64,000 nucleotides of DNA from Dysidea avara (lineage: Eukaryota > Porifera > Demospongiae > Dictyoceratida > Dysideidae), in the NCBI RefSeq assembly GCF_963678975.1, contig NC_089276.1, positions 25,997,555 to 26,061,554 of the forward strand, given 5' to 3'. Shown here piece by piece: positions 8,938 through 63,334 of the stretch. The stretch's first letter is position 1. Each line of letters starts with the position of its first letter. The notes under the pieces are model-generated. The model searched no databases and was not told where the DNA came from. It worked only from the letters and a program-made list of their open reading frames with translations. A program made the translations under genes and the position numbers.

Positions 8938-9913
8938 ATGAGCTTTATTTTCTTAACTACACTACTGATGCCATTGCTGATAGTTCATTCTCATCCAATC
9001 AATATGGTTTGTGTACCAGTTTGTAATACAAGTATTACAGCCAATGAGATACTCATTAATCACTGGTTGAGCAACGATGATTCTACAGGAATAGACCAAC
9101 TTCTGAACAAAGAGGGTACTGTAACTGAAGTGTTAATAAGATTATCATCCACTGATGTGAGTATACACAGCTCCATGCAAGTAATGTAATAGCTATATAG
9201 TATACACACACAACTTTACTCACTGAACTTACTATATGCTCCCCTTTTTTTTCTTCAGCTTAATGATTGTTCCAGTCAGTATAACTTGCTCACAACAGTT
9301 GCTACCGATGCTGAAAATGTATCAATTAATTCTCTGGTGGAATTTTTCAATGCATACCTTGTGCATGAACTGTTTGTGGAGCACTTGATGAGTTTTACAA
9401 TTGATGAGCTACTGTTCAATGACTGGGTGAAACAAGCAAATGTTAATGAGCTGTACAATAATCTTCAAAATTTTCACAACATTTTACAATACAACTTTAA
9501 AAATCTTGCTTATATGGTAAGAGGAATCAATACATTAACTGCATGTACTAGGTAACTTACTTCATTAATACATTAATGTTTGAGAATTGGTGACATATTG
9601 CAGCAATCTGTATGTGTAGTTATTTACTCACATGTGTGTATTTAACCAGCTCAATATCAATGGCACATGTGATGCTTGTAAAAGAAACTGTTCAAGATCA
9701 GATGAAGTCAAGGATTATTTTGTTCAAACTATGAACAGCTGCTCTAGTCCTATCTATAACTTCATTGTGACAGTGGTCAATCACTCATACAAACTGTCTC
9801 AAACATTAAACAAGTTGAAAGAGACAATCACAAACAGTGGTGATATACAAACAATGGATGTTACACCTCATGATGATATCAGTATTGATGAGCTCTGTTG
9901 GTGTGGTGAATGA
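8938..9913 (+). CDS. alpha1: secreted helical cysteine-containing protein
   Basis: Three exons, 8938-9156, 9259-9516 and 9650-9913, give 246 residues. The introns are 102 and 133 bp, both GT-AG and both phase 0. Residues 1-18 form a hydrophobic signal peptide, followed by HP at 19-20, so the protein is probably secreted. Cysteines are at 25, 29, 77, 166, 169, 173, 190, 242 and 244; sequons NTS30, NVS93, NGT163, NCS172 and NHS203 suggest N-glycosylation. The regions 34-72, 95-159 and 177-221 read as amphipathic helices, and exon 2 carries FFNAYLVHELFVEHL. The start is the first ATG after a TATA box. I recognise no known family; a secreted four-helix cytokine-like ligand is the best guess. The gene converges on beta2, with which it shares a nearly identical third exon. 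Confidence 0.85.
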
Positions 9914-10063
9914 TGACTCTATATAATTATAACTGACAAAAGTAGCAATCTTTGAAATGTAGAACATGTAGTCACTAATTACTAGTAACATGTTACAGTT
10001 AGCACTAAATTATTGCATAGTGCATGATCAAATTTACACAGTATAGTGATTGTGTATTTGATT

Positions 10064-10069
10064 AATAAA
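10064..10069 (+). terminator. alpha1 polyadenylation signal
   Basis: AATAAA lies about 150 bp after the alpha1 stop codon and is conserved at the same relative place in alpha7 (63486-63491) and in the broken alpha4 (27167-27172). Confidence 0.6.
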
Positions 10070-10826
10070 ATGCTTTATTAATGCTTTATACTGCAATGTA
10101 TAATTACACAATCACAGCCCACCTCTTTACTGTGTCACTTGTCTGACCACTACATGCAGATGAAATAAAATACACACATATGCATATAAGAAATGCTTAA
10201 TGTTTGGTGTTGTCAACCAACTTTGCCTGAACATTTACAGATGAATAACTTAAAACAAACACAGACTTGAATATTAATTCATAGCTAGAGGTGGCACCAA
10301 GTTTTTTTCTGGATACAATTAATTGGTCTGCTTTAGCATATATAGCTATAATGCACAATGACATGTTTTAGGGTAAAACAACAATGTAGCACTCAGTAGA
10401 CTCTATAGCTGTTGTAATTGTTCTACTGGAATCTGACCAGCTACAAAATGTATATCACAAATAAGTACTGGTACTATACTAACAGTTGCATATATAACTA
10501 CCCATATTCCAATATTTTAAACTATGTACTTTGCTGTATTAAAATATAAGGGATATGCTTTGCATGAATTTATAAAAATGACTATATATGGTATAAAATA
10601 CATGGTGACTTATTATTAGTGTCACTTGTAAACATAATTACTGAGAACAGTAAAAAAAAGTGAAATAAAAATAATTAAATAAAAAAAACAAAAAACAAAC
10701 AAAAATAAAAAACAATACACAATTCATCATTAATACCTAGCTATAGACACACTTAAGCAATGTACAAACTGGATTGGTAGAATTAATAATACCTAACAAA
10801 AAAACTAAAGCACAGTCATTGATCCA

Positions 10827-11806
10827 TCAGTGATCACACCAACAGAGCTCGTCAATACTGATATCATCATGAGGTGTAACATCCATTGTTTGTATATCAC
10901 CACTATTTGTGATTGTCTCTTTTAACTTGTTTAATGTTTGAGATAGTTTGTGTGAGTGATTGACCACTGTCACAATGAAGTAATGAATAGGACTAGAGCA
11001 GCTGTTCATAGTTTGAACAAAATAATCCTTGACTTCATCTGATCTTGAACAGTTTCTCTTACAAGCATCACATGTGCCATTAGCCCTGAGCTGTAAAAAC
11101 AGGCAGCACTAAAAATACTGACAATATAAATTTAGTGAAAAGTTAAATACATGTAGAGATATAGTTAGCTATTGCTTACCAAAATTGCAAGGCTTCTTAG
11201 ATTGTACTGAAGGATGAGTTTTAGCTTTGCAAGTTGCTTGTTCAAGTCATACACCTTTGTCTGATGTACCCAGCCATTGTACAACAATTCACTAGGAGTA
11301 AATGTCATCAAATGTTCCACAAATAATTTGTGTACAAGATAAGCATTAAAAAACTGTCTGATAGCGTTGACTGACACATTAGTATTTTTTGGAACTCTTG
11401 CAATAGAGTTGTATTTAAGCAAACAATCATTGTGCTACAGGATAAAATGATATTGCAAATGAAATGTTTCAATATACTTATAGTAAATATTTAACTATAT
11501 ACAAATTATCACTGCATGTGCTTTTAAAAGTCAATCTAATAATTAAACAGCTAATGCATGTTGCACATCACAACCACACTCTCTATGAAATATACTCACA
11601 TCAGTAGATGATAAACTTATTAGTGTTCTAATCACTGTGCCTTTGTGATTTAGAATTTGGTCTATTCCTGTAGATTGATCATTACCTAACCATTGATTCA
11701 GTAGTGTCTCGTTGGCTGTAACATTTGGACTACAAACTAGTACACATATCATTTTGATTGGATGAGAGTAAACAAGAAGCAATGGCAGTAGTGCCACAGT
11801 ATACAA
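10827..11806 (-). pseudogene. beta2: secreted helical protein gene lacking an ATG start
   Basis: Minus-strand exons are 11600-11806 (5' limit uncertain), 11180-11434 and 10827-11090; introns are 165 and 89 bp, GT-AG, phase 0. Exons 2 and 3 are open and give 85 and 87 residues with the family cysteines: NDC, C-x2-C-x3-C, NSC and terminal CWC. The signal-peptide core and Ser-His-Pro are present. Compared with beta5, however, the six bases ATGAAA that open the frame are missing, and an in-frame TAG sits at 11816-11818, just ahead of the remaining codons. The next in-frame ATG would remove the signal. Either the gene is dead or it uses a TTG start or another 5' exon. The TATA box at 11870-11876 is intact. 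The rest looks conserved, so inactivation would be recent. Confidence 0.75.
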
Positions 11807-11869
11807 AATAGTCTTCTAAGCTGTTTGCACTTGAATCAACTTAACTGAAGCAAGTAATATTGTCATCTC

Positions 11870-12808: not shown

Positions 12809-13701
12809 CTAGTTGCACCAACAAAGACTGTCAACATTTTCAGCAATAGAGTTTTGTGGATTGTTCATTTCTTTGTTACTTTTCGACTGGTCATCAACCT
12901 CATGTTTCAATCTCTTTACAACTCTATACAACTTCTCTGAGTGTGAAGTTATAGTAAATACTACACTGTGGATAGGATTGTTACAGTGACTCATTTTTGA
13001 GATAAGTGATGCAACCATCTCAGTTGATTTTGAGCAATTTCTTGTACAACCATGACAAGTTGTGTTCAGCTGTATAACAAAGAATTACACATAACTAGTA
13101 ACACATAGTGTGTAATTATACCCTTACCAGTTGACCAAGGTTCTTGATATTGTAATTTAGAACGTTCAGTAATTTGGTAAGATTGTTATAAGTATCAACT
13201 GCAGTTGGTAGCTGTAGCCACTCCTTTTCTAGTAGCTTAACCTCACCTAGTCCAACTAGATACTCAACATAAAGTTTATGCATCAAGTAAGCATTGAAGA
13301 AGTGTCTGATAGTAGTGATGGATGTGTCATTATAGCATGAAGAACTGTTACATGATGTCATATTTACATAATCCTCTAAGCAGTCATGAAACTATAGACA
13401 ACAAAATGAAATTACTGTATACATGCAGATGGCAATAGTTACATACCTTTGTAGAGTTTTGGCTTTGTAGTGTAAGTATTATACTGGCCACACTGTTTCT
13501 ACTACGACGACGAAGTTGATTGATTCCTTTAGAATTATCACTCAGATCCAACCACTTATCTAAGAACATCATATCAGCAGTGATGTTATCAGTACAGGAT
13601 TGATCCATCACACTAGCATTTTCACTACTTCCAGAAGTACATATAGGATGAGAATTCACCACTAGTACCAGCAACGAGACAGAAATTAAGACAGCTTGCA
13701 T
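12809..13701 (-). CDS. gamma3: secreted helical cysteine-containing protein
   Basis: Minus-strand exons 13447-13701, 13128-13391 and 12809-13069 encode 85, 88 and 86 residues (259 in all). Introns are only 55 and 58 bp, GT-AG and phase 0. A signal peptide covers about residues 1-17, ending NSHP as in the alpha type. Cysteines include 21, 36, 89, 99, 104, 178, 181, 185, one in SHC and the terminal CWC at 256-258. Sequons occur at N28, N39, N95, N100, N106, N155, N175 and N184, so heavy glycosylation is likely. Exon 2 shares FFNAYL, the H-K-L-Y-V-E stretch and a L-N-Y-N-x-K-N-L end with the alpha type. Exon 1 adds a basic RRRSR patch absent from alpha and beta. It is probably a secreted ligand of unknown function; the gene looks intact. 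Confidence 0.85.
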
Positions 13702-13779
13702 CTTATTCTGATTTTAATTTATCGTGTTAAATTAGCTTTTGAGATTATTAATGCTGGTTACCTGAGTGTGGTGCTGTCG

Positions 13780-18890: not shown

Positions 18891-21800
18891 GGTTACTTAT
18901 TAGTACACATTTTAATGATATAACAACTTATAAAATAATAATGTGAGCCATGTAGATACAGTTACAGGAAAACTGATTGAATGCCTCCACCATTAAATGC
19001 TGCAAGTGAACTACAGAGTTAAAAATAATATTTTAAAAGATAAAACTGAAAGTGTTTATGTTGGTACAAACTATGAGACTGCACAATACAATGCACAATC
19101 GCACAAATAAGAGATATTTGGGCAGAATAGAATTAAGTATTACATAACTCTGATGGACTCACATGTGCAATAATTGGGAGTTTCAATCACAGAAGGGAGT
19201 AATACAAAACGTGTTAGAAAAGGAAAGTTTTTTATACATGAAGCAATAACAGAACACATTTATGGTTAATGCACTTAAGCATTCAATTCGTGCTTTATAT
19301 AAAGAACTTTCTTTGTTTCAACATGACACATTTGCTGATCCTTAGAGCGGCCCCACAGTAAATCATTTATAATGTGCTGGCCTACATGTGGACTTGGTGA
19401 TAGGCTTTGCTAGATTTGGCCTAGCTAACCTACCAGAAGGGTAAGGAGGAAACCTAGTAATAAATGTCCAAGATTAATGCACAGTACACAGTGAAACTAA
19501 AGATAAAGTCACAGGTTAGGTTTAAAAGTTAACTGAATACATACCTATACCAAAAGATAGCTACATATGAGACATGGAAAGTCAGTGACTTTATTTGAGT
19601 TTATAGATTTTCACAGTACCAAACTTTCCCTCCATACAAAGATGTGTTTAATAACCTGTAGGGCTGGTACAGGGGTTTTAGTAACTTCTTGCAACATAGA
19701 AGGCAACATAAAAAATGGATAAGCATCTTAATTGACCAATGATTGTTGTCCTAGAGTCCATATTAGGAATGGTAGCAGTAAACAACTACCATAATGGGAG
19801 TGAACCATGCATCTTTCAGACTAGTTAACATGTAAGAAGCCATACCATGCTCTACGCATTTTCAATGTTGGTACATCATACAGTATGCTAGTACCGTATA
19901 TTAGAGATCATGGAGGTTTTGGTTTTCTGGCCAAAAACATCACCAAAAACCGGCTTCACAATGCTGACTTTGCAGTATTAGTTAGGCATAATCAAGCCCA
20001 AAAGTGCCTCCGGTGCAACCCCAATAGATTGTTACAAAAATTTTAAAAATATATAATGGAATTACCTGCTAACTGCCTACCACCTGCCTGATGCCTTCAG
20101 CAAGTGTAAATCGATAACCGCTAAGGCTATGGGCTTGATTTTTTCACTGTTCAACATCACTTCATCCCTAGATGTGCCTTTTGGCATACTGCAGTACCTA
20201 CAATGCTTAATGACAGTCAATGACCTTATACATGCGGTTACTATTGATTACCCAAGGCCATGACTCAGCTTGAATCATAGATACTCATACTCACAGAGAG
20301 TATGTTATATTTACTTTTCAAAAAGTAACAAGCTTAATAAAATGATACGCACCATGCAACAGATGACTATGTCTTGCAGTAATTTACTTATAGCCACAAG
20401 ATTTACTGTACTTTAATTATTCCATATGGTTCCAATATGCATATCCTATTCTTTACTGAACTATGTACATGTCCTAGACAGCAACAACATCCTTAAATAT
20501 TTCATAGAGAAAGTTTGACTTATTGATTTTGGGGCATCTATGTATGCATGAAAAAGTAGTGGGAAGTTCCTGAGTGGAAACACGGTAATCCAAGTTGAAG
20601 CAATTGACCCAATTGTACATGGTGACTATATATCCTCTAGACAGCAGGAAATACAAGATCAACATCAACCTCAATTATTTCATAGATAAATTAAAGTTTG
20701 ACCTATTGATTTTGGGGCATCTACCTATGTATGAAAAAGTACTGGGAAGTTCCTGAGTGGAAACACGGTAATCCAAGTTGTACACAGCCCAAACAAATTA
20801 TACATGGTGACTATGTCAGGACAGCACTGTAACATAAAAATGTAACAAATGAAGTTTATGATAGAATTGAATTGAATTATTAAACTGGGGATTATTGGAT
20901 GGTTAAACCTTCTGGCTAAAGCTACATACTTGATTTTTTCACGGTTTGACATTGTTCCGGCCCAAGAGGTGCGTTTTGGCATACCACAGTATGTACAATG
21001 CATTCATCATGGACTAAAGGTTTATCTCTGTACATGTGTTAGCATTTTGTATATAATTTAGTTGTATAAATATGTAAAGTTTCTTATTTTTGTTATCAAG
21101 GCAAGCCCTTTACAAAAAGTTTAATCCTTTTCTAGAAGGATTTTCTGCATTCAGAGTTGTAATCATGAATGTATGCCATCAAATCAAGCTGCTTAACTTC
21201 TACATTCCATCTGAATGAGTTTAGTCTGACAGGGTTTAATAGTTGCAGCTGATTACACATGTGTAGCTATTCTACCACAACTTCCTCATTCCAATGTGGT
21301 TATGTACACTGAAATGACCAAAACTATGTTTGCTTTGAGAGCTTACAAATGGGATTTTACAAGTGCATGATGAAAACCAGCATTGAAAGTACATTGCATG
21401 ACCTATAATAGTCTTCCACTTCAATAAAAACAACTTGTTAAGAGCATCATTGTGATGGTTCAGTATAGAATTTACTTCACCTTTACATTTTATCACCCAA
21501 CTTAACTACATTACACATAGAAACTCTTTTTGCTCCATGGGCAGTTAAAGTAACCTTTTGCTACAGAATGAACCATTCTGGTGGTGGAGTCATTCTATAG
21601 TATAACAGTAGCCTAAATAGCTCTATTAATTCTGTTAAAGTACACACAGAAAATTATTAGCACATATCCTGGGTGTATACATACATACTTACAAAGGTGC
21701 AGTATAGTGTGAAACCTGTTAAACAAGATACTTGAAAATGAGGACACCCACATAATCTGAACACTTTGTAATGTTTTATACAGTATGTTGGAAAATTAGA

Positions 21801-24800
21801 ACACTATTATAATCAGAGCACTTTTGGTCACTCCCAAGGTGCCGTTAGTACAGAGGTATTACTGTAGTTATGTAAGTTTAAACTAACTTGTGTGAACAAG
21901 TAATCTAGATTGTGTATAAAAAGTTGCTGAGTTGTATACTGTTATAAATATGTCAACTTGTACTCATCTTTCATGAAGTCAATAGATTAGTGCAACACAA
22001 AATGCATCCATGTACTTTTGACTTAGATTTGTCCTATTTTCCATCATTGAGTTTACAATAAAATCCCTTTATAGGTATATTATGCAAATAAATATTGAGC
22101 TACAAATAAGTTAGGTAGCTTAATAAGGAGATTACAAGGCTTCACATCATTACCATTCTTCTGTCTTGAGTGGGACTAGAACATAATGAGGTCATCATGC
22201 AATGTGTAGGATAAGATTGTGTACTCAAAGCTTACAGGTCACAATTGAGCATGTAGGCATGAAGTATGTATATTGACCAGGGAGTTATTTTATGTTTGTT
22301 TTTTTACGTGTTGTCTACGTTGATTTTAGCTGGTCTGTTTATTTTACCTTTATATGTTATACCTAAAAATACAGTGTGATGTTTCATTTATAATTTTCAT
22401 GTATTCATAGTTGTTGTAACCATCTTTACCACTGACTTTAGAGATATTGATCTAGAGTAGTAAGTGTGTCAGCAGTGTATCAGCTCATGATACATTATTG
22501 CAAGAAATAACACAGATATTTAGTAATTGTTTACATATGAGTAACAGTAATTTGAAACGTGTACATGGCAATGGAGCTTAATTCACCGTTATAAGTAGGA
22601 CCTAGCATAACTCAAGAAATGGTGGCACAAATGAATGTATTGTCACCCTTTCAGGTTTCCACAACCAGATGCCAGAACTAAAGGCTATTGTGTTTTCACT
22701 TGGTTTAGTGGCCAAATTACAGCAACCTTTAATGGAAATGTAAACAAATGAAATCTGTGTAGCTTCATGCACTTGATACTCTTGCTAATACATGTAGTTA
22801 TGAAAGTGGTAATGTTCACATTCCCATTCATTGTACAGATAATAGAGTCATAACTGCTCCTTATAATTACCCTAAGCTAGAGATGAACATTAATATATCT
22901 ATACTTGCTAACAGTAATTGGGCAACCACAGAAACTATCCAGAAGCCATATGTAAAGGAAGTCAACTACAGTTCGAAGAAAAGAACAGGAAAAGTACTAC
23001 TATAAATGTTATCATGAACAGGTTGCTAGGTTACTAGTCAATACCTACATAGAAAATCATCATAATACACTAACAGTAAATTAGAACTGATCGATTACCA
23101 CATAAGGAATAAATTTATATAGTAGTAAACAAAGTGAAAATCAACATGTTAAACACTTTGAGGTCATTGACAAAATTTAATGTGATCATGATCAGGTATA
23201 CAAAAACCAGATGTGTACACACAAACTTTGCATGTTCACTTAAAAAAAACTATACATACATTATCATTCTATCAGGATGCTAGAACCATGCAAGTTTTAT
23301 CCCTTAGCTATTAAACTTTTATTGGGTTGGGACTGCAAGTTACAGAATATATATACAGATTTTCCTTTTGAGTACTGAGATAAAGTCTATTCAGTACATG
23401 ATCTGGTACATCCCAATGGTCACATGTCCAGTTCTGCATGCCTGGTCACAAATAGTCTTTTAAAGTGGTTATTGTTACCTTAGAAACTCATTTCCATCCA
23501 TGTCTCTCGGTCTTTTATCTGCTAGTCCACTTTTTTCTAATAATTTTGTCACTTTGTTTTTGACATTAAAATGATGTGGTATGGTCTGTAAATTTAAAGT
23601 GTTAAGTCTTAAAATTCAGTAAACAAATGCACTGACTATTGAATTAACTGAACTGTATAATCTGTAGTATCAACACGAGAACTGCCTTGCATCTGCATTT
23701 GCCGTGTATCATGTACAGTGTTAGCATACATACACACATATCTATACTTTCCAAGCAACATGTGTACACATAAAGTAAACAGCACTACATGCATATGGAC
23801 AGAACATAGAAGACATCAAGAAGAATAAATATTCATATATAAGCAACTTGTAATAAAAAATACCTATACAAATACCTAACTGTCTTCTCAGCTGCTTTAA
23901 ACATTGAATTCTCTATTTAATGTTACCATTTTATGTGCCAGAACTTGTAGCTACCACTTTTAGTACAGAGTGTTTTTATAGCTATATACCTTGCCCACCA
24001 TTCAAGCTGTATGTGTAGTATTTCATTGCATCTTAGGCCAATAACAAGCTTTAGGTTATAAACTACCCATAAAAGCACATATGTAGCAAAGCCACAGAGC
24101 TACTGTGTCAAAGATGATTCTTCAAGTAGATGTATTAAAATGCCTTAATATAAGTTGTAGTCTTTAAGTATGCTTGTAATTTTGCATACGTAAGTGTAGA
24201 CAGAGATGCATGAACACAGACAAATAGTTTATTAGTTTTCCTATATCGGCACATGTTAACCAGTCTTTAGCTAGCCAAGAAAAGAGTATCAAGTTAAGAA
24301 AATGATTAAATGATTAAAAAAATTTACAGAACATCCCCTGAACAGGAAATCAGCCACACAGCATAAATTTCCTGCTATTTGGGAAAATCGAATGTGCTAA
24401 TAATTTTACCCATAAAAGATATAACACGCTATAAGTGTAAATAATGATAACAGTCTTGTTTTTTCTTAAATGAAATGCACTAAATATCTACTAGTGTACA
24501 AACAAATGAATGGGATATGGTAACAAAGTTATCTTACGTAAGTGTGATCTACAACAGACAACCTTTAAAAATAAAATTTTATTTTGTTGTTTGCAATTTA
24601 AGCTTGCAATTAAAAAAGGCTTACAAGTGTAGTAGAAAATAGTAAAATAATGAGGAATACTTTGACATCATTAATTGTTTAATTTGCCTACACTTAATGC
24701 TCTGGTATGTTTTGACTCTTACAGTATATCTCTTACCTATAGGTGATGAGCTGAGAGTTTTGTTTTTACATACAAAAGCAACTTGAGCCAACTCATAGAA

Positions 24801-26406
24801 ATGGACAAAAAAAATATATATATTATAGCATATTATACTCTGCATAAACATAGCAATTATGAAATACATATAGGTAAAGATATGGAGTCATCCCAACTTA
24901 CAAGTTTACTTATGAAATTGCACATTTATGTGGGACCAATCACGCTCTTTTAAAAATTTCATACATGATTTGTCTTCACAAAATGTCCTTTTGATACAGG
25001 GAAGGCCCATCATGCATCATAAACTTATGATGTGCAATTATGGCATTAGAAAAACAGTGTGGAAGCGTAAGGGCTCTGTGACGTATATATGTGGCATAGA
25101 TACACAGTTCGTCTTTTATAGATTTGGCAAGATGGCTGTCAATGTTTAAGATTATGAAATGAGTGACCAATCTCCTCTGACAAGGAACACTACTGGATTA
25201 GCTTAATCAATAACATAGTTGCTATCATAATGGCTTATGCATACCTTAAAGTTTGGTGGGGAGGAGGGGGGTTTCTTCACTCTTTTCACACAACACTATA
25301 TGGAATAGTAAGGAATAGTATTCACCTTAATGGTTAGTCATTCATTCCCTCAGAAGTTACAAAACGAAGAAGATATGTACACAGTATGAACAAGTATGGC
25401 CTCTTGCAGTAAAATGTTTTCTATAATACACCTTCATAATCTGACTTCATTACATCTTTACTACATTGATAGCAACAATGAAAGGGAGTGAAAGCAAGGG
25501 AGTGTATAGTAACCGTGAACACAGCTTTATATTTCACTTGCTAGTTCAGGATATTATTTCTCTTTCACTTTAAAATATTTTGTTTATCTACCACTCTCTA
25601 GGATTAATGTTATCACTGTATTCACTATTACACTGAAACCTCTCTAATCTGCTTGGGTGAAAATGTTGCAAAATCAAAAGTGGTAGGCAAAAATGGCTGC
25701 AATGATGTTAATGGCAATTGCTGCAATTCCTAATAAATTATTATTAATACTATAAGGAATTTCAGTGTGAGCTATTAGAACTATAAAAGGTACATATTTT
25801 TTAAGAGTTATGTTACAATCACTCATATAATTCATATAAGTTAATTCATTATTCTCCTACACTGGATGGACATTTTCTAAATGTTCTATGGAAAAAAAAT
25901 GCATGAAGGGAAGTCCCTCAACAAAGTTTACATATTATACGTATAGAGTGACCACAAAAAAAAACAGAGTCACCGTTATATGTTTACTTCAGCTTAAAAT
26001 GTGGTTATGTGCAAACATGTCATGTATTCAGATATTACACTAATAGTAACAGGTGAAAATGCACATTCATACATTTTCTAAAAATAGAGGTAATTAGCTA
26101 TGTGTTTGTTAACTTGATGACAAATGATGTAATGTAGTCATATGTAATTCAATATTCAAGCACATTCTAATGTGTAACACAGAATATGTGCAATTGCTGT
26201 ATCCACTGGAACAACCAAATCACTGGAAACTATACACTAATTTCTTATACAAAAAGAAAGCAATAATGAGATATCCTATCTGCAAAGAAAGTGATATAAT
26301 AGACTATGATCTACATAACATAATAACATTCATTAATATGTAGGCATTATAGTACTGAAGGATATGAATATAAGTGTATGGTTGACCAACAAGGAAGTCG
26401 CATTGC

Positions 26407-26412
26407 TATAAA
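26407..26412 (+). promoter_or_regulatory. alpha4 TATA box
   Basis: TATAAA kept ahead of the broken alpha4 gene, with AAGGAAGT 12 bp upstream as in alpha1. Confidence 0.5.
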
Positions 26413-26476
26413 GTAAACGACTCAATCAAACTGAGCTATTTGCAAACAGTATACGCATAAAATATTTTCAATCAAG

Positions 26477-27119
26477 ATGAACTTTATTTTCTTCACTACA
26501 CTACTGATGCCATTACTGATAGTTCATTCTCATCCAATCAATATGGTTTGTGTACCAGTTTGTAATACAAGTATTACAGCCAATGAGATACTCATTAATC
26601 ACTGGTTGAACAATGATGATTCTACAGGAATAGACCAACTTCTGAACAAGGAGGGTACTGTAACTGAAGTGTTAATAAGATTATCATCTACTGATGTGAG
26701 TATACACAGCTCCATGCAAGTAATGTAATAGCTATATAGTATACACACACAACTTTACCCACTGAACTTACTATATGTTCCACTATTTTTCTTCAGCTTA
26801 ATGATTGTTCCAGTCAGTATAACTTGCTCACAACAGTTGCTACCGATGCTGAAAATGTATCAATTAATTCTCTGGTGGAATTTTTCAATGTATACCTTGT
26901 GAATGAACTGTTTGTTGAGTTTTATGAGTTTTGTGGGTAAAGTTGGGTAAAGTTTTGTTTGATGAGTTTTGTAAAACTCATCAACACTTGATGAGTTTTA
27001 CAATTGATGAGCTACTGTTCAATGACTGGGTGAAACAAGCAAATGTTGATGAGATGTACAATAATCTTCAAAATTTCCACAACATTTTACAATACAACTT
27101 TAAAAATCTTGCTTATATG
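26477..27119 (+). pseudogene. alpha4: broken copy of the alpha gene, exon 3 missing
   Basis: Exon 1 (26477-26695) is intact with the signal peptide and family residues, and intron 1 is normal. Exon 2 (26797-27119) is 323 nt instead of 258: about 65 extra bases after the FV-E codons bring an in-frame TAA at 26938-26940 and shift the frame. After exon 2 the sequence jumps from the intron 2 donor region to the 3' flank near the AATAAA at 27167, so exon 3 and the stop region are deleted. The product would be a signal peptide plus about 102 residues without the C-terminal cysteines. It is almost certainly non-functional unless the truncated secreted form acts as a decoy. Confidence 0.85.
26959..26984. 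repeat. Perfect 12-bp inverted repeat inside the alpha4 insertion
   Basis: TTGATGAGTTTT, two bases, then AAAACTCATCAA. Both arms copy the adjacent exon text (CTTGATGAGTTTTAC), so the insertion looks templated from its own flank, as in replication slippage or error-prone end joining. Confidence 0.8.
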
Positions 27120-29081: not shown

Positions 29082-30916
29082 TCAGTGATCACACCAACAG
29101 AGCTCATCAATACTGATATCATCATGAGGTGTAACATCCATTGTTTGTATATCACCACTGCCTATGATTGTCTCTTTTAACTTGTTTAATGTTTGAGATA
29201 GTTTGTGTGAGTGATTGACCACTGTCACAATGAAGTTATGGATAGGACTAGAGCAGCTGTTCATATAGTTTGAACAAAATAATCCTTGACTTCATCTGAT
29301 CTTGAACAGTTTCTCTTACAAGCATCACATGTGCCATTAATATTGAGCTGTAAAAACAGGCAGCACTAAAATTACTGGCAATATAAATTTAGTGAAAAGC
29401 TAAATACATGTAGAGAGATAGTTAGCTATTGCTTACCAAAATTGCAAGGTTTCTTAGATTGTACTGAAGAATGACTTTTAGCTTTGCAAGTTGCTTGTTC
29501 AAGTCATACACCTTTGTCTGATGTACCCAGCCATTGTACAACAATTCACTAGGAGTAAACGTCATCAAATGCTCCACAAATAATTTGTGTACAAGATAAA
29601 CATTGAAAAACTGTCTGATAGGATTGACTGACACATTAGTATTTCATTTTTGGAACTCTCGCAATAGAGTTGTACTCAAGCAAACAATCATTGTGCTGCA
29701 GGATAAAATGATATTGCAAATGAAATGTTTCCATACTTATAGTAAATATTTAACTATATACAACTATCACAGCATGTGCTTTTAAAAGTCAATCTAATAA
29801 TTAAGCACCTAATGCATGTTGCACATCATATCAAAACAAATGTCAAATTTACCGGATTCTGCAAGGTTTTGCCCGTTTCCGGTGAAAATTACACCACCAC
29901 GTAAACAAACCACTATAACTTCCGCATACTTCAGTTTACGGAAACATCGTTTGGTTTATCGAACTCGTTGATGTCAGGCGAGTCCTGTGGTATATTAGAT
30001 TTTGCTCTGAGACAAACAGGAAGGGCAGAAAGAGCCTTGTTCTGGTGAATTACGCATCATCGGTTACGTAAAATAATGCCGGAAAAACAAGGTTTTTCGA
30101 GTACTTCTCTGTAAAATTACCAGTTAAACACTCAGTACGGGTGGATTCTTAATCAGTACGCTTCAACACATACAATGATACCAAGTTTTGGGGATTTGGT
30201 GGAGGGTAACAGCCTGTACTTAAGGGATTTGTCCACCCACGTAATCAATTTCTCCAATAGGCTTTTGTATGGAGTGCACATTATGCCATAATCAACAATG
30301 AATAAGTGACACTGTGGTAATGTTACAATTCCAGTACAGGCGGCATTGTATAGGGCAATTCATGGGCTTTCTTTCATTGTATAATGTTCTGTAGAAATTA
30401 TGGGTGCTAATGCCTGTACTTTTGTGTTTTCTGAATATATTACAAAACGCATGTATTTTGTATTGGACAAGGGAATGACAAGGTTTTTTAATCAGCTTGT
30501 TTGACAAACCTGACGAAGTGAAAGGGTTATAAAGTAGATATTATACCTTTTTAATGTTTAATTCTTTAGAATTAAGGGTAAAACTTAGATTTCTGCGAAA
30601 ATTGAGGTTTTGGCTGTGATTTGACAAAATGTACAGAATATTTTTGCGGATATGTCACAACCACACTCTCTATCAAGTGAAGTATACTCACATCTGTAGA
30701 TGATAAACTTATTAGTGTTCTAATCACTGTGCCTTTGTGATTTAGAAGTTGATCTATTCCTGTAGATTGATCATTGCCTAACCATTGATTCAGTAGTGTC
30801 CGTGGCTCGTTGGCAGTAACTTTTGGACTACAAACTGGTACACATATTATATTGATTGGACGAGAGTAAACAAGAAGCAATGGCAGTAGTGCCACAGTAT
30901 ACAAAATAGTTTTCAT
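29082..30916 (-). pseudogene. beta5: broken beta copy with inserted intron 1
   Basis: Exon 1 (30692-30916) is intact, starts MKTILYTV and has a good signal peptide and 75 residues. Intron 1 is about 1 kb instead of 165 bp because of an 826-bp insertion. Exon 2 (29437-29695) has four extra bases near 29645, giving an in-frame TAA at 29636-29638. Exon 3 (29082-29347) has two extra bases near 29265, giving TGA at 29261-29263. The promoter is also cut off by the BEL/Pao element, which begins 50 bp upstream of the ATG and displaces the TATA box to 44014. Four independent lesions mean the gene is dead. Splice sites are still recognisable. Confidence 0.88.
29829..30654. mobile_element. 826-bp insertion in beta5 intron 1
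   Basis: Comparison with beta2 gives an empty site GCACATCACAACC. In beta5 the same bases are split, with TCA on both sides (29826-29828 and 30655-30657), a possible 3-bp target duplication. The ends carry a minimal inverted CATATC/GATATG. No coding frame is convincing. The class is unknown. Confidence 0.55.
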
Positions 30917-41273: not shown

Positions 41274-42369
41274 GTGGGACTGTTAGGTCTGCGATGGAAT
41301 ACATCAACTGACATTCTTTCTCTTGCAACAAGACAACTTCCACCTGTCGACACCTTTGTTACAAAGCGTGATATACTGCAGGCGTCATCACAGATTTTCG
41401 ACCCGCTGGGATGGGTAACACCAGTAACAATTAAGGCCAAAATTCTACTGCAGGAGATCTGGCAAACAAAGTTAACTTGGGATGAACCCCTTCCTACTGT
41501 GATCAAGGAGAAGTGGATTGCCATTCTTGCTGATCTACAAGAATTGCCACAACTGATGATACCAAGAGCTTACTTCCCATCCAGTCAATCAAATATGCAG
41601 ATAAGTAACATGTTTGTGTTTGCAGATGCCAGCACTAAGGCATATGGAGCTGTTGTATACCTTAGTAGAGATAATAATATTTGTCTTGCTATGTCAAAGA
41701 CCCGTGTGGCTCCTATCAAGGCTACTTCCTTACCAAGATTAGAGCTCATGGCAGCTGTTACTGCTACGAGATTAGCGAAGTTTGTTTATTCAGCAGTCCC
41801 TCACATTCAACAAGTACACTTTTGGACAGACAGCCAAATTGTGTTACATTGGATACACTATGGCACAAATTCCAAACCATTTATTGACCACCGTGTTTGT
41901 GAGATTTGTGAAACATTTCCTACTGTTAACTGGTCTTTCACACCCTCAGGTGACAACCCAGCCGATCTGCTTACAAGAGGAATATCAACCAACCAAAAGA
42001 GTGTCTCACCTGTGGACACAAGGCCCACACTGGCTGCCCACAAAATCAGATTGGCCCACATGGACACCCACAAGTGTACTCCATCTACAGGCAGAAGAGG
42101 ATGTTGAACCTGAAGCTACTCACACAACAGAGCTTCCAACTACAGACAGCCACACAGGTATTTTATCTATTGTTGATGTATCACGATACAGTAGTTTTAA
42201 TCGCATTCTGGCTGTCACTGCTTATGTTTTCAGATGGCTTCAGAACCTATGCAAACAGCAACCCAAGTTATCTGGCCCCTTAACAAACATTGAATTGACT
42301 AATGCACGTAGACATCTGGTGAAGGGCATACAGGGTTCAGCTTACCAAGTTACTCAAAAGGCAATCTAA
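41274..42369 (+). pseudogene. BEL/Pao RNase H-like region
   Basis: The frame at 41274-42107 continues the BEL pol with a Q-I-F-D-P-L-G-W segment (connection domain) and an RNase H core: FVFADAS with the first acidic residue, LPRLELMA with the Glu, FWTDSQIV with the Asp, and the late NPADLLTRG motif. After about 42000 the homologous text switches to an overlapping frame up to 42369, showing a frameshift. Confidence 0.7.
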
Positions 42370-42379
42370 GTGTCCCCCA

Positions 42380-45042: not shown

Positions 45043-45935
45043 CTAGTTGCACCAACAAAGACTGTCAACATTTTCAGCAATAGAGGTTTGTGGATTGTTC
45101 ATTTCTTTGTTACTACTTGATTGGTCATCAACCACATGTTTCAATCTCTTTACCACTTTATACAATTTCTCTGAGTGTGAAGTTATAGTAAATACTACAC
45201 TGTGGATAGGATTGTTACAGTGACTCATTTTAGAGACAAGTGATGCAGCCATCCCAGTTAATTTTGAGCAATTTCTTGTACAACCATGACAAGTTGTGTT
45301 CAGCTGTATAATAAAGAATTACACATAACTGCCAACACATAGTGTGTATTTATACCCTTACCAGTTGACCGAGGTTCTTGACATTGTAATTTAGAATGTT
45401 CAATAGCTTGGTAAGATTGTTATAAGTATCAACTGCAGTTGGCGGCTGTAGCCAATCCCTTATTAGTAGCTTAACCTCGCCTAGTCCAACTAGATGCTTA
45501 ACATAAAGTTTATGCATCAAGTAAGCATTGAAGAAGTGTCTGATAGTAGTGATGGATGTGTCATTATAGCATGAAGAACTGTTACATGATGTCATATTTA
45601 CATAATCCTCTAAGCAGTCATGAAACTATAGGCAACAAAATGAATTTACTGTATACATGCAGATGGCAATAGTTACATACCTTTGTAGAGTTTTGGCTTT
45701 GTAGTGTAAGTATTATACTGGCCACACTGTTTCTACTACGACGACGAAGTTGATCAATTCCTTTAGAATTATCACTCAGATCCAACCACTTATCCAAGAA
45801 CATCATACCAGCAGTGATGTTATCAGTACAGGATTGATCCATCACACTAGCATTTTCACTACCTCCAGAAGTACATATAGGATGAGAATTCACTATTAGT
45901 ACCAGCAACGAGACAGAAACTAAGACAGCTTGCAT
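45043..45935 (-). CDS. gamma6: secreted helical cysteine-containing protein
   Basis: Minus-strand exons 45681-45935, 45362-45625 and 45043-45303 encode 85, 88 and 86 residues; introns are 55 and 58 bp, phase 0, GT-AG, exactly as in gamma3. The signal peptide with NSHP, all cysteines and most sequons are kept. Differences from gamma3 are scattered substitutions, for example Lys-to-Arg or similar changes in exon 2 and several in the C-terminal tail; no frame break is seen. Keeping an open frame over three exons while neighbours alpha4 and beta5 decayed suggests selection. Function unknown; probably a secreted ligand, as for gamma3. The TATA box is at 46010-46016. Confidence 0.85.
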
Positions 45936-52367: not shown

Positions 52368-54500
52368 AACTTATTTATTTATTTATTTTATTTTCCAAAA
52401 ATGTGCAGCCTCAGTTTGAGGATTAATGCACATATGAAACATGCATACAAAATGTTTTACAATATGATTGATTATGGGATTACTGATTGGTAGGGGAAAG
52501 TAATAATAATTTCAGTTGGTACTTAAAAATTTGTAATGATTGTTGTTGGATTAGGTCAGGTGGGAGTGAATTCCACAGTCTAATTGATCTAGGGAAGAAT
52601 GAATTACTGTACTGATTGGTCCTTGCATAGATATGATGAAATCTTTGATCATGTCCTCTGGTGTTAGAAGTGACAGGGATTAAATCAACTGGAGATATAT
52701 CAATGAGATTATGAACAATTTTGTAGAGGAGGGTGATACTAGATACTTGTCTGTGGTGTTCTAAGCTGGGAATGTTAAGGTCAATGAGCATGTTAGTTAC
52801 GCTGCTGAAACGCGAGAAGTCAGCCATAATGAATCTGGCAGATTGCCTCTGTACTCGTTCAAGCTTATCAATGTCTCTTCTTATGTGAGGGGACCAGACA
52901 GGAGTGGCGTATTCTAAGATTGGTCTTATCATGGCATTATAACATTTCAATTTGATTTGAGTAGGGCAGGACTTAAGATTTCTCTGTAGGAATGCTTTGA
53001 CTGATAGAGCTTTGGATGTGATGCTAGTAATGTGTGTGGACCAAGACAAGTCATTGGTGATTGTAACTCCTAAATATTTAGTAGATGAAACTTCTTGGAT
53101 AGAGATGTCATTAATGGTGTAGTTGTACGTGATCGGATTGTGTTTACGAGTGATTCTCATAAATACACTTTTATCAGGATTAAAAAAAACATACCAGATC
53201 TAGTGCCCCATTGTGATAAGGAGTTGAGATCATTCTGAAGTGATAAACAGTCGGATGTAGAGTGAATAACAGTATAAAGTATGGTATCGTCAGCATACAG
53301 ACCAATGTTGGCATTGATTGATAATGGGAGGTCATTAATATAACATAAAAATAATAGAGGGGCTAAGATTGTTCCTTGGGGGACACCCGAGTTAACTGCA
53401 TGTGACTCACTGGTTGAACCATCAAGAGTTATACTTGTTGATGCCTACCGATGAGGAAGTTTTGTAGCCATGTTAGTAGTTCCCCTCTAATACCATAGTA
53501 GGATAATTTGTTACATAAACGGTGATGGGGGACTTTATCAAATGCCTTAGATAGATCTAGAAAAATGATATCAATTTGAAAGCCAGAGTCGAGAGATTTA
53601 GAAATGTTGTTTACGGTAGTAATAAGTTGTGATTCACATGATCTTCTAGGTCGGAAACCATGTTGTCGGTCGCAGAGGATATTTATTGATTCTAGGTGAG
53701 AGAAGAGATGAGTGTGAATTAGGTGCTCCATGATCTTGCAGCTGATACTGGTTAGCGATATTGGTCTGTAATTGGATGCAAGTGTTTTGTCTCCTTTTTT
53801 GAATACAGGTACAATATTAGCACGTTTCCAGTCCATGGGAAGTTCTCCTTGATGAAGTGATGAATTGATGATCAGAGTTAGTACTGGAGCAATTTCTTGA
53901 GAGGCTAATTGTAATAAGTGTGATGGGATTTTGTCTGGTCCTGGTGCTTTATGAACATCCAAAGTTGTTAGGAGCTGGGAGACATCAGCATAAGTAATGG
54001 AAATAGGTTGTATATCAAGATAAGGGCTTTCATCTGGTGTGAGAGTACACTGGGTGTCTTCGGTGGTAAACACTGAGCTAAAATAATCGTTGAGGATATT
54101 AGCTTTGTGGGTGGAATCAGTGATGGTATGACCATTATGTGACAGTGGGGGTATTCCAACGTGATCCAATTTTTGCTTTTTGATATATGACCATAGTTTT
54201 TTTGAATTAGCTGTGGGACTGGAGTCAATGAGCTTCGAAAATTAGTCATTATAGGCTTGACGGCATTCTTTTTGAGCTAAATTTTTGAGAGTTTTATACT
54301 ATTGCCAGGCGGCAGGTGAGCGTGTTCGGCGATACTGAGCATAAGCTCGCTTCTTTCGTCTACAAATTCTTTTAATGTAGGTGGTGATCCATGGTCGGTT
54401 TGATGTCTTGTTCGAAGATAACTTGCTAGGAACCAAAGTGTCCAGACAGAAGTGACAAGCAGATTTAAAGTCAGTCCACAACTGGTTGATTGGAAGTCAC
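52368..54500 (-). pseudogene. 5'-truncated LINE, CR1/Jockey-like reverse transcriptase
   Basis: Read on minus, the fragment starts in the linker before the reverse transcriptase (RRKKRAYAQYRR near 54340), passes through APGPDKIPSHLL, NYRPISLTS, HGFRPRRSCESQL and DLSKAFDKVPH (53429-54169), has the catalytic YADD near 53288, and ends with the C-terminal part (52480-53160) with KLERVQRQSARF and LWNSLPPDL. An (AAAT)n tail lies at 52370-52395. The endonuclease is missing, and there are frame breaks near 54200 and between 53160 and 53430, so it is dead. These motifs suit CR1/Jockey-type LINEs. Confidence 0.85.
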
Positions 54501-56484: not shown

Positions 56485-57355
56485 TACCGTATAGAGGGAA
56501 ACTTTGGCGGAGATAAACTTTGGCGAATAGCAAGCTAAATCACATTTGGCAAAGTAAGCTTTCGAATTCAAACTCAATCTATAGCTATAAAGTATAAAGA
56601 TGTTAACTTGTTCCCAGTGTCTTTGTATTATTATAAGGAGAATGGGATGACGTGCCGTAGACTTTCAAATATCTAAACCTTAAGCAATCATGTGACATCA
56701 CGTGATCTCCTATAACAAGGTCATGTATGGTTCAATTCCAAAGAAATGATCAGGGTTTTATCACCATGTAGTGGGGACCTACATACCCTGATCCTCCTAA
56801 CTCCCTCTCTCATGCTATGGCACCACCCATTTCACACTAACGCACCAGTTGAACGATGGCAATTGTTAGTGGAGAAAAATAAAGAGGGAGGGATGTAGGG
56901 TGGGAATAATAATGTTGGAGCTGCTTAGAGTGCAGAATGCTAGAGTGCAGAATGCTAGAGTGCAGAATGCTAGAGTGCAGAATGCTAGAGTGCAGAATGC
57001 TGCACTGAGTAACGCTCACCACTATTTAAAGCTGTAACTTAGCACCTGTCATACCGGTTTGACTGGTTTGTGCCCAGGTTAGCTTTGTTACATCTTGACA
57101 CTATTTGATGTTTGTCTCCACCTTCCCATGGGCCCTATGCATAGATTGCATATTTGTTTCACTAGCAACTAGGTATTTCCCAGTAAACAGCCATTGTTAT
57201 AGAGACACTTCCAAGTTAACCCTGTTTAACCTACGGCTAAACTTGTATTAATCTCAGGCACTACGAGTAATTGGTGGGTTACACTTTGGCGAATTTGTAG
57301 CGAATCACCAAATTCGCCAAAGTTTTCCCCTGCCAAAGTTTCCCTCTGTACGGTA
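56485..57355. mobile_element. MITE with about 40-bp inverted ends (copy 2)
   Basis: Same element as 3064-3889, same site, with the internal minisatellite expanded by 45 bp. Confidence 0.75.
56927..57001. repeat. 15-bp minisatellite, 5 units
   Basis: AGAGTGCAGAATGCT five times without visible change. The copy at 3506 has two units. Confidence 0.9.
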
Positions 57356-60300
57356 TAGCTACAGAATGAACCATTCTGGTGGTGGAGTTGTTCTATAGCA
57401 CAACAGCAACCTAAATAGCTCTATAAACTGTTAAAGTACACACAGAAAATTATTAGTACATAATTTATCTTGGGTGTATACATACTTAGCTACAATGGTG
57501 CAGTCTAGTGTAAAACTTGTTAAACAAGATACTTGAAAATGAGGACACCCACATAATCTGAACACTTGATAATGGTTTGTACAGTATCCTTTAGCATGTA
57601 AACTGGCTTTGAAAATTAGAACACCTTGATAATCAGGACACTTTTAGTTGGTCCCAAGGTGCCGTTAATACAACTGTAGTTATGCAAGTTTAGATTAACT
57701 TGCTACATTTGTGTGAATGAGTAATCTAGTGCATAAGATTGTGTATAAAAAGTTGCTGAGGTGTATACTATTATAAATATGTCAACTTGTACTCGTCTTT
57801 CATGAAGTTAATATATTAGTGCAATAAAGAATGCATCTACATACTTAGGTTAACTTTGACTTAGATTTGTCCAATTTTCCATAACAAAAAATCCCTTTAT
57901 AGGTATGTTATGTAAATAAAGTATATTTCGGCTGATTAAATAAGTTAGGTAGCTTAATAAGGAGATTACAAATGCTTCACACCATTACCGTTCTTCCATC
58001 TGGAGTGTGACTAATACATCCTGCAATGTGTTTGTGTACTCAAAGCTCACAGGTCACAAAAGGCAGTGATGTGTGACAATTGAGCGTGTAGGCATGAAGT
58101 ATGTATATTGACCAGGGAGTTTATTACTTTGTCTTTTTTTTACGTGTTGTCAATGTTATTTTAGCTGGTCTGTTTATTTTACCCTTATTAATGGCTGTAT
58201 ATGTTGTATTTAAACATACAGTGTGATGCTTCGTTTATAATATTCATGCATTTGTTGTAACCATCTTTACCACTGACTTTAGAGATATTGATCTTGAGTA
58301 ATAAGAGTGTCAGCAGTGTATCAGCCCATGTTATATTATTGCAAGAAATAACACAGATATTTTAATAATTGTTCACATATGTGTAACAGTAATTTGAAAC
58401 ATGTACATGGCAATGGAACGTAATTCGCTGTGATAGGTATATAGGACCTAACATAACTCAAGAAATGGTGGTGTGTTGTCACACCTTCAGGTTTTCCAGA
58501 GCCAGATGCCAGAACTATAACAATAGTCAATTCCCTATTTAAAGGCTATTGTGTTTTTACTTGGTTTAGTGGCTGAATTACAGCAACCTCTTTAATGCCA
58601 ACGTAAACAAAAGAAATCTGTGTAGCTTCATGCACTTGATACTCTGGCTAATACATACATGTATAGCTATGAAAGTGGCAATGCTCACATTCCCATTCAT
58701 TGTACAGGTAATAGAGTAATAACTGCTCCTTATAATTACCCTAGGCTAGATATAAACAGTAAAACATCTACACCTGCTAAACAGTAATTGGGCAATCATA
58801 GAAACTATCCAGAAACCATAAGTCAACTACCTGTTCCAATAACTTAAGAAGAAAAGAACTGGAAAAGTACTACTATAAATGTTATCATGAACAGGTTGCT
58901 AGGCTACTAGTCAATACCTACATAGAAAATCATCATAATATACACACAGTAAATTAGAACTGATTACCACATAAGTAATAAATTTATATAGTAGGTAAAC
59001 AAAGTGAAAATCAACATGTTAAACACTTTGAGGTCATTGACAAAAAAATTTAATGTGATCATGATCAGGTATACAAAAGCCAGGTGTGTATAGACACAAA
59101 CTTTGCATGTTTACTTTAAAAAAACTATACGTACATTATCATTCGATCAGGATGCTAGAACCATGCAAGTTTTATCCCTTAGTTATTAAACTTTTATTGG
59201 GTTGGGACTACAAGTCACAGAATATATAATTTTATACAGATTTTCCTTTTGAGTACTGAGATAAGGTTTATTCAGTACATGATCTGGTACAGTATCCCAA
59301 TGGTCACATGTCCAGTTCTGCATGCCTGGTCACAAATAGTCTTGTAAGTGGTTATTGTTACCTTAGAAACTCATCTCCATCCATGTCTGTCGGTCTATTA
59401 TCTGCTAGTCCACTTTTTTCTAATAATTTTGTCACTTTGTTTTATGGTCTGTAAGGTTAAAGTGTTAAGTCTTAAAATTCAGTAAACAAATGCACTGACT
59501 ATTGAATTGACTGAACTGTATAATCTGTAGTATCAACTCGAGAACTGCCTTGCATCTCCATTTGCTGTGTATCAATGTATGTACAGTGTTAGCATACATA
59601 TACACATATCTATATTTTCCAAGCAACATGTGTACACATAAAGTAAACAGCACTACATGCATATGGACAGAACATAGAAGACATCAAGAAGAATAAATAT
59701 TCATAAATAAGCAACTTGTAATAAAAAAAATAACTATACAAATACCCAACTGTCTTCTTAGCTGCTTTAAACTTTGAATTCTCTATCTTACCATTTTATG
59801 TGCCAGAACTTGTAGCTGCACTTTAGTACAGAGTGTTTTTATAGTTACCATGCCCACCATTCAAGCTGTATGTGTAGTATTTCATTGCATCTTAGGCCAA
59901 TAACAAGCTTTAGGTTATAAACTACCCATTAAAGCACATATGTAGCAAAGCCACAGTGCTACTGTGTCAAAGATGATTCTTCAAGTAGATGCATTAAAAT
60001 GCCTTAATATAAGTTGTAGTCTTTAAGTATGCTTGTAATTTTGCATATGTGAGTGTAGACAGAGATGCATGGAAACAGACAAATAGTTTATAAGTTTTCC
60101 TATATCGGCACATGTTAATCAGTCTTTAGCTAGCCAAGAAAAGAGGATCAAGTTAAGAAAAAGATTAAATGATTAAGCATATTAAAAAATTTATAGAACG
60201 TCCCCTGAACAGGAAATCAGCCACGCAGCATATATTTCCTGCAATTTGGGAAAATTCAATGTGCTAATAATTTTACCCATAAATGATATACCCTATAAGT

Positions 60301-62270
60301 GAATAATATTGTAACTTCTTGTCTTTTCTTAAATGAAATGCACTAAATATCTACTAGTGTACAAACAAATGCATGAGATATGGTAATAAAGTTATCTTAC
60401 ATAAATGTGATCAACCTTATTGAAAAATCAAATTTTATTTTCTTGTTCGCAATTTAAACTTGCAATTAAAAAAGGCTTACAAGTGCAGTAGAAAATAGTA
60501 GTACAGTATTATGACGAGGAATACTTTGACATCACTTACTGTTTAATTTGCCAAGTTATCCTATGCTTAATGCTATATAATTCTATGGTATGTTTTGACT
60601 CATAAGTTTTGTACAGTATATCGCTTACCTAAATGATCATGACGAGCTGAGAGTTTTGTTTTTACATACAAAAGCAACACAAGTCAACTCTTAATAGAAA
60701 TGGACACACAAAATGTTATAGCATGTTACTCTGCATAAACATAGCAATTATGAAAATCATATAGGTAATTGGAGTCATCCCAACTTTTGCTACAAGTTTC
60801 TTATAATATTGCACATTTATATGGGACCAACCATTCCCTTTTTAAAAATTCCTATTTGTCTTCACAAAATGACCTTTTGATACAGGGAAGGTCTGTCATG
60901 AATCATAAACTTATGATGTATAATTATGGCATTAGGAAAGCAGTGTAGAAGCGTAAGGGCTCTGTGACGTATGTGGCATAGATACACAATTCGTCTTTTA
61001 GATTTGGCATTGATCTGAGGTGACTGTCAATGTTTTTGAGATTATGAAATGAGTGACCAATCTCCTCTGACAAGAAACACTCTTTGTCCAACTGGATTAG
61101 TTTAATCAATAACATGGTTGCTATCATAATGCGTACCTTAAAGTTTGGTGGTGGGGAGGGGGTTTCTTCACACTTTTCACACAACACTATATGGAATAGT
61201 AAGGAATAGTATTCACCTTAATGGTTAGTCATTCATTCCCTCAGAAGTTATAAAACGAAGAAATATGTACACAGTAAGAACAAGTATGGCCTCTTGCAGT
61301 AAAATGTCTTCTATAATACACCTTCATAATCTGACTTCATTACATCTTTACTACATTGATAGCAACAATGAAAGAGAGTGAAAGCAAGGGAGTGTATAGT
61401 AACCATGAACACAGCTTTATCTTTCACTTGCTAGTTCAGGATGCTATTTCTCTTTCACTTTAAAATATTTTGTTTATCTACCACTCTCTAGGATTAATGT
61501 TATCACTGTATTCACTATTACACTGAAACCTCTCTAATCTGCTTGGGTGAAAATGTTGCAAAATCAAAAGTGGCAGCCAAGAAATGACTGCAATGATGTT
61601 AATGGCAATTGCTGCAATTTCTAATAAATTATTATAAATACTACAGGGAATTTCAGTGTGAGCTATTAGAACTATAGAATTTTTCAAGAGTTATGCCACA
61701 ATCACTCATATACTTCATATAACTTTATTCATCATTCTCTTACACTGGATGGACATTTTCTAAATGTTCTATAGCAAAAAATGCATGAAGCGAAGTCCCT
61801 CAACAAAGTTTACATATTATACGCATAGAGTGACCACAAAAAAAATAGAGTCACCATTATATGTTTACTTCAGTTTAAAATGTAGTTATGTGCAAACATG
61901 TCATGTATTCAGATATTATACTAATAGTAACAGGTGAAAATGCACATTCATACATTTTCTAAAAATAGAGGTAATTTGCTATGTGCTTGTTAACCTGATG
62001 ACAAATGATGTAATGTAGTCATATGTAATTCAATATTCAGGTACATCCTAATGTGTAACACAGAATATGTGCAATTGCTGTATCCACTGGAACAACCAAA
62101 TCACTGAAACTATACATTAATTTCTTATACAAAAGGAAAACAATAATGAGATATCCTATCTGCAAAGAAAGTGGTATAATAGACTATGACCTACATAACA
62201 TAATAACATTCATTTATATGTAGGCGTTATAGTACTGAAGGATATGAATATAAGTGTATGGTTGACTAAC
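57356..62270. other. Non-coding duplicated DNA upstream of alpha7
   Basis: Collinear with 3890-8850 and 21560-26390. Small frames (60924, 61478 on minus) are related to those at 7521 and 8050 but differ by indels that shift frame. Nothing else is supportable. Confidence 0.55.
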
Positions 62271-62286
62271 ACAGAAGTCGCATTGC

Positions 62287-62292
62287 TATAAA
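62287..62292 (+). promoter_or_regulatory. alpha7 TATA box
   Basis: TATAAA 65 bp ahead of the start. The upstream Ets-like core of alpha1 is changed here to ACAGAAGT, losing GGAA. Confidence 0.55.
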
Positions 62293-62356
62293 GTTAACGA
62301 CTCAATCAAACTGAGCTATTTGCAAACAGTACACGAATAAGATATTTTCAATCAAG

Positions 62357-63334
62357 ATGAACTTTATTTTCTTCACTACACTACTGATGCCATTGTTGAT
62401 AGTTCATTCTCATCCAATCAATATGGTTTGTGTACCAGTTTGTGATACAAGTATTACAGCCAATGAGATACTCATTAATCACTGGTTGAACAATGATGAT
62501 TCTACAGGAATAGACCAACTTCTGAACAAGGAGGGTACTGTAACTGAAGTGTTAATAAGATTATCATCTACTGATGTGAGTATACACAGCTCCATGCAAG
62601 TAATGTAGTAGCTATATAATATACACACACAACTTTACTCACTGAACTTACTATATGTTCCACTATTTTTCTTCAGCTTAATGATTGTTCCGGTCAATAT
62701 AACTTGCTCACAACAGTTGCCACCGATGCTGAAAATGTATCAATTAATTCTCTGGTGGAATTTTTCAATGCATACCTTGTGCATGAACTGTTTGTGGAGC
62801 ACTTGATGAGTTTTTCAATTGATGAGCTACTGTTCAATGACTGGGTGAAACAAGCAAATGTTAATGAGCTGTACAATAATCTTCAAAATTTCCAAAACAT
62901 TTTACAATACAACTTTAAAAATCTTGCTTATATGGTAAGAGGAATCAATACATTAACTGCATATACTAGGTCACTTTCTTTATTGATACATTAATGTTTG
63001 AGAATTGGTGACATATTGTAGCAATCTGTATGTGTAGTTATTTACTCACATGTGTGTATTTATCCAGCTCAATATTAATGGCACATGTGATGCTTGTAAG
63101 AGAAACTGTTCAAGATCAGATGAAGTCAAGGATTATTTTGTTCAAACTATGAACAGCTGCTCTAGTCCTATCCATCACTTCATTGTGACAGTGGTCAGTC
63201 ACTCACACAAACTGTCTCAAACTTTAAACAAGTTAAAAGAGACAATCACAAACAGTGGTGATATAGAAACAATGGATGTTACACCTCATGATGATATCAG
63301 TATTGATGAGCTCTGTTGGTGTGGTGGTGAATGA
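62357..63334 (+). CDS. alpha7: secreted helical cysteine-containing protein
   Basis: Exons 62357-62575, 62677-62934 and 63068-63334 encode 73, 86 and 88 residues (247). Introns are 101 and 133 bp, GT-AG, phase 0. The signal peptide is kept, as are SHP, the two exon 1 cysteines, NDC, C-x2-C-x3-C, NSC and terminal CWC; the tail has one extra Gly compared with alpha1. Substitutions are few (for example Asn30 to Asp, which removes the first sequon). No break is seen, so this is a probable working gene. Role as for alpha1: probably a secreted ligand or effector, family unknown. Confidence 0.85.

Follow-up and report, generated by a model that had tools for sequence, protein, structure and literature searches.

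What kind of gene family occupies this locus, how have its copies become nearly identical in one part while staying different in another, and what might its products do? The window (the whole 64,000-nucleotide stretch that was analysed, C5:25997555-26061554 in a genome of 550.8 Mb and 108 contigs) had been annotated as carrying seven related three-exon genes or gene remnants. Reading frames and tblastn across the window bear out all seven and their places; tblastn with nine exons finds no eighth copy there. Their order is alpha(+) beta(-) gamma(-) alpha beta gamma alpha. The first, alpha1 (+), has exons 1 to 3 at 8938..9156, 9259..9516 and 9650..9913, which encode a signal-like N-terminus with the first cysteines, a FFNAYL core, and a C-x2-C-x3-C ... 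CWC segment followed by the stop codon. Next come beta2 (-; 11600..11815, 11180..11434 and 10827..11090), which has lost its start codon (at this point it is 8 bases shorter than beta24), and gamma3 (-; 13447..13701, 13128..13391 and 12809..13069). The second alpha, alpha4 (+), is a dead copy located by tblastn: exon 1 lies at 26477..26695, exon 2 (26797..27119) is interrupted by a 65-base insert and exon 3 is missing. Also dead is beta5 (-), with exon 1 at 30692..30916, 838 extra bases in intron 1, and frameshifts in both exon 2 (29437..29695) and exon 3 (29085..29347). The last two are gamma6 (-; 45681..45935, 45362..45625 and 45043..45303) and alpha7 (+; 62357..62575, 62677..62934 and 63068..63334). 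Live and dead copies thus stand side by side in the array, as had been claimed, and, because beta2 is without a start codon, alpha1, gamma3, gamma6 and alpha7 are the only intact copies in the window. Segmental duplications are contained in it, among them 3501-10582 with 56968-64000 (95%) and 3892-9396 with 21560-26932 (88%).

The fixed order of the three subtypes is real, and it continues beyond the window. With 230 kb of upstream and 50 kb of downstream flank included, exon searches locate 25 alpha, beta and gamma copies or remnants over 163 kb (C5:25,902,245 to C5:26,065,691), the last 18 of which fall into six successive alpha(+) beta(-) gamma(-) triplets; no further copy of these subtypes occurs in the next 46 kb. 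Reading frames, splice sites and start codons mark 14 copies (4 alpha, 4 beta, 6 gamma) as intact and the other 11 as broken. A poly(A) signal is absent from the 600 bases after the stop codon in 8 of 22 copies checked. An exact 21-base alpha exon 2 pattern has three matches genome-wide, all of them inside this cluster. The copy order and the self-alignment of the window indicate that the cluster grew by duplication of whole alpha-beta-gamma triplets. Upstream of these copies, six-frame reading reveals a divergent fourth three-exon subfamily, delta (loci L004-L013 and L029-L031, C5:25,767,950-25,893,748), of which nine copies are seen, one of them with in-frame stops. In four modelled delta copies the introns are GT-AG, in phase 0, and placed between the same exons, and delta is homologous to the alpha/beta/gamma profile (hhalign Prob 97.1, E 5e-11, 196 columns). 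Counted from the first delta copy seen, the family extends over at least about 298 kb.

The architecture ascribed to the family by the initial annotation stands in large part. Two introns at matching places, in phase 0 and bounded by GT-AG, are found in all five copies modelled (alpha1, beta2, gamma3, gamma6 and alpha7), and C-x2-C-x3-C with a terminal CWC is found in all six copies with a third exon, alpha4 having lost its own. Two motifs that had been taken as general have exceptions: the N-terminus, in which a signal peptide was called by eye from the sequence, ends at Ser-His-Pro in six of the seven copies and at Ser-Arg-Pro in beta5, and FFNAYL is present in five of the seven, being FFNVYL in alpha4 and beta5. 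The degree of relatedness by tblastn depends on the exon: exon 2 sequences match between subtypes at E 1e-12 to 1e-24; exon 1 matches at about 1e-26 between alpha and beta, and at only 1e-5 to 1e-6 between either and gamma; exon 3 matches at about 1e-52 between alpha and beta, and at 1e-14 to 1e-16 when complete alpha or beta exons are compared with gamma. In an alignment of 19 sequences (15 alpha, beta and gamma, beta2 included, and 4 delta) six cysteine columns are common to all, and two further cysteines are recognised by reading in each of the subfamilies, their positions slightly displaced. N-glycosylation motifs number 2 to 10 per protein.

The exceptional likeness of alpha and beta in exon 3 is the new finding at this locus: the third exons of these two subtypes have been homogenised, whereas exon 2 keeps its subtype identity. 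Averaged over pairs of an alpha and a beta copy, synonymous difference amounts to 0.39 in exon 1 (42 pairs) and 0.71 in exon 2 (30 pairs), as against 0.09 in exon 3 (36 pairs). The boundaries of this likeness were examined by a shuffling control with 10 pairs (8 alpha-beta, 2 alpha-alpha), all of them with 93-98% identity in exon 3 DNA. Past the stop codon, the first 150 bases align no better than shuffled sequence in any of the 10 (the real score is attained by 29 to 179 of 200 shuffles). The introns of the same pairs are 62-79% identical, compared with 60-69% for shuffles, and their similarity, though weak, is real: in none of 17 comparisons is the real score attained by more than 11 of 200 shuffles. 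The shuffling control therefore identifies the introns as diverged homologues and the 3' flank as devoid of likeness, leaving exon 3 alone nearly identical; the drop in similarity at its border is sharp, yet the introns are not random.

Phylogenetic comparison places the two exons in the same opposition. Monophyly of exon 3 is rejected by the AU test for alpha (p 0.011) and for beta (p 0.016), whereas in the tree of exon 2 alpha and beta each form a clade (support 81/86 and 85/90, neither starred). Within alpha itself, alpha01, alpha05 and alpha1 represent three types, the pairwise synonymous divergence of which, in exon 2, far exceeds that in exons 1 and 3 (p 9e-5, 1e-5 and 6e-5). The difference between exons is weaker for beta06 and beta09 (p 0.035), and none is detected between gamma07 and gamma13 (p 0.10). 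We read the pattern as pointing to concerted evolution of a shared C-terminal module. Its form suggests gene conversion as the mechanism: exon 3, the cysteine-rich C-terminal module, would have been copied repeatedly between alpha and beta, with conversion stopping at the exon borders, where good homology stops, and with exon 2 escaping conversion and diverging. That the identity of exon 3 comes only from the pairing of convergent alpha and beta copies was considered and rejected, because alpha01 and alpha05, which have no adjoining convergent beta, share the same exon 3.

Relatives in other genomes bear on the relative age of the subtypes and of the homogenisation. A search of one protein collection finds them only as pieces on JGI and ENA contigs, and a scan with a five-protein alignment finds none on viral contigs or on bacterial and archaeal contigs; within the scope of that collection, the sequences are consistent with a family restricted to a lineage. 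The whole-protein alignment retrieves a single protein, P0001, which on reading comprises first and second exons of beta-like type, intron 1 being translated in frame between them; the exon searches retrieve 12 proteins each, 24 in all. Five of these (P0002, P0003, P0008, P0014 and P0018) match copies in this genome at 99-100% and lie on one 1,506,122-base contig, and therefore probably belong to the same species or assembly; for the remaining 19 the match is 61-83%, save P0009 at 95%. All seven proteins with an alpha/beta-type exon 2 (P0001, P0015-P0017, P0019, P0022 and P0023, some of them mutually close, as P0001 and P0016 at 90%) side with one subtype by at least 12 points. All five distant proteins with an alpha/beta-type exon 3 (P0004-P0007 and P0010; P0002, P0003, P0008 and P0009 were left out as coming from the same or nearly the same species) lie within 2 points of being equally close to alpha and to beta. 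Since exon 2 keeps its subtype elsewhere and exon 3 does not, the alpha and beta subtypes look, from protein sequences, older than the split between the genomes, exon 3 having been homogenised since. The alpha/beta-type exon 3 of other genomes is 76-83% identical in protein to that of this genome, in which 10 other alpha and beta copies are 91-98% identical to alpha1; the exception is beta06, at only 83% to alpha1 no closer than the nearest copy from another genome. Paralogues within the genome are thus more alike than orthologues, the hallmark of a concerted family, in exon 3 only, at the protein level and against five outside sequences.

Searches for a known relative return little, and the earlier statement that no database family can be recognised holds: neither Pfam, NCBIfam nor PDB yields a credible match. 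NCBIfam returns nothing at all; Pfam, PHROGs and PDB return only weak matches, the strongest of them to an unnamed PHROG (E 3e-4) and to Pfam DUF4487 (E 0.003), each for one of five members, and these are taken as chance because they differ from member to member. Sponge aggregation factors carry Calx-beta and related repeat domains, and none of these domains appears in the Pfam results for this family. The family is also undescribed in the literature searched, motif search included, a body of text outside which most subscription papers fall.

What, then, might the proteins do? It appears probable, on balance, that this is a tandem family of secreted, disulfide-bonded and, in part, probably helical proteins (of ~230-250 residues after the signal-like N-terminus) that evolves in concert and has some extracellular recognition or effector role. 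As an extracellular ligand or effector, such a protein might meet a shared partner through its C-terminal module, with exon 2, which differs between copies, setting specificity. Among extracellular roles, a recognition or signalling ligand is favoured because the genes form an array, the subtypes are old and exon 2 contrasts with exon 3, and it is made plausible by analogy with three known systems. In MHC class I, within-species homogenisation is most noticeable at one constant-domain exon, exon 4, while other parts differ, the antigen-binding part being diversified (PMC1403747). The likeness here is of one homogenised exon (exon 3) and another part kept different; no sequence relation to MHC class I is found, and the present products would be short and secreted. 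The rodent ESP pheromone genes, with their Esp exon 3, compared with MUP and ABP (PMC3477143), likewise form a large family encoding secreted proteins, a likeness drawn from description; unlike them, the present family gives no support for positive selection in averaged codon models. The sea urchin SpTransformer genes form an invertebrate immune family that is clustered and shows tandem segmental duplications (PMC8634487), as the present copies also are clustered and segmentally duplicated in tandem, but they have two exons and a mosaic of elements in exon 2, whereas there are three exons here and no mosaic was noticed.

To go beyond a ligand in general and assign these proteins specifically to immunity, allorecognition or reproduction, the direction in which the initial annotation pointed, is doubtful. 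Less likely again is an invertebrate constant/variable recognition locus, in which a constant exon 3 and a variable exon 2 would give a repertoire of secreted ligands, maintained by exon-limited and possibly RNA-templated conversion. Secreted recognition ligands are little known in early-branching animals, which lends weight to the locus if the host is one of them. With one exon in common and another diverging, four subfamilies and relatives elsewhere, the cluster is a defined candidate for tests of expression, binding and allele diversity, and it lends itself to the study of gene conversion confined by exon borders.

The alternative that survives best, though it is rather unlikely, is a structural, digestive, antimicrobial or matrix family that is not a ligand at all, the array reflecting only dosage and birth-and-death. 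Dosage also yields tandem arrays with dead copies, and the codon models agree with it to the extent that omega is below 1 at p < 0.05 in 10 of 12 sets (three subtypes and their pool, three exons; the sets also take in individual open exons from broken copies, with tree and kappa fixed in the test) and that averaged omega never exceeds 1, leaving positive selection unsupported. For the whole cluster, pooled omega is 0.40, 0.47 and 0.46 for exons 1 to 3 (below 1 with p 2e-10, 5e-9 and 1e-5). For alpha, beta and gamma in turn it is 0.27, 0.30 and 0.47 in exon 1, 0.46, 0.51 and 0.94 in exon 2, and 0.49, 0.77 and 0.45 in exon 3; the only values indistinguishable from 1, those of gamma exon 2 (p 0.81) and beta exon 3 (p 0.47), may reflect relaxed constraint. 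Pairwise dN/dS is 0.27 for alpha1-alpha7 and 0.45 for gamma3-gamma6. Such purifying selection supports protein coding, on the main reading as well as on this one. What tells against a dosage family are the subtypes that predate the split from other genomes and the three divergent alpha exon 2 types set between homogenised exons 1 and 3; together, the old subtypes and divergent exon 2 suggest that variation in this exon is maintained, neutral divergence being also possible.

Descent from class I/II helical cytokine-like ligands, along a branch so divergent as to fall below profile detection, is quite improbable. These proteins do resemble helical cytokines and type I interferons in their signal-like N-terminus, in having only phase-0 introns, in the clustering of their genes and in possible helices. 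As to the helices, helical periodicity of hydropathy has p < 0.05 in three of seven segments (one of seven after correction for seven tests); the long segment of exon 3 alone shows it clearly, and it is not significant over the whole mature chain. Against this kinship, searches of Pfam and PDB give no cytokine match, and the number of introns differs: there are two here, compared with four phase-0 introns in fish type I interferon genes (PMC4929537) and three in the IL-4/13 genes of sea bass and other teleosts (PMC5440397).

It is more improbable still that the likeness of alpha and beta exon 3 is due to constraint on its nucleotides (for instance, through a function at the RNA level) instead of gene conversion. 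The identity does extend to synonymous sites and drop at the exon borders. The third exons of convergent alpha(+) and beta(-) copies also form close inverted repeats, 917-987 bases apart in all four pairs in which both are present and open; an example is at window positions 9650-9913 and 10827-11090, where alpha1 and beta2, ~0.9 kb apart, share 244 of 261 bases (93%). Judged from sequence, read-through of such a pair could generate long double-stranded RNA. Nucleotide constraint is nevertheless difficult to reconcile with the divergence of exon 3 in other genomes noted above, or with gamma, the exon 3 of which shows no such constraint. Gene conversion remains the preferred reading. Finally, that these are repeat-derived open frames and not a gene family is scarcely credible, for all that the region is rich in repeats and 11 of the 25 copies are broken, given omega below 1, splice sites kept though introns have diverged, and subtypes conserved in other genomes.

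The surroundings of the genes contain other elements, most of them recognised by eye. Long open frames at 38732-43513 (+) of the window, between beta5 and gamma6, resemble what we take to be a BEL/Pao-type retroelement, and others at 52480-54241 (-) are like the reverse transcriptase of a non-LTR retroelement. The segment 32500-36500 has many self-matches and a strong AT skew, and is apparently an array of short-unit repeats. Within 46 kb downstream of the cluster, at L024-L028, lie open frames like those of a TauD-like dioxygenase gene.
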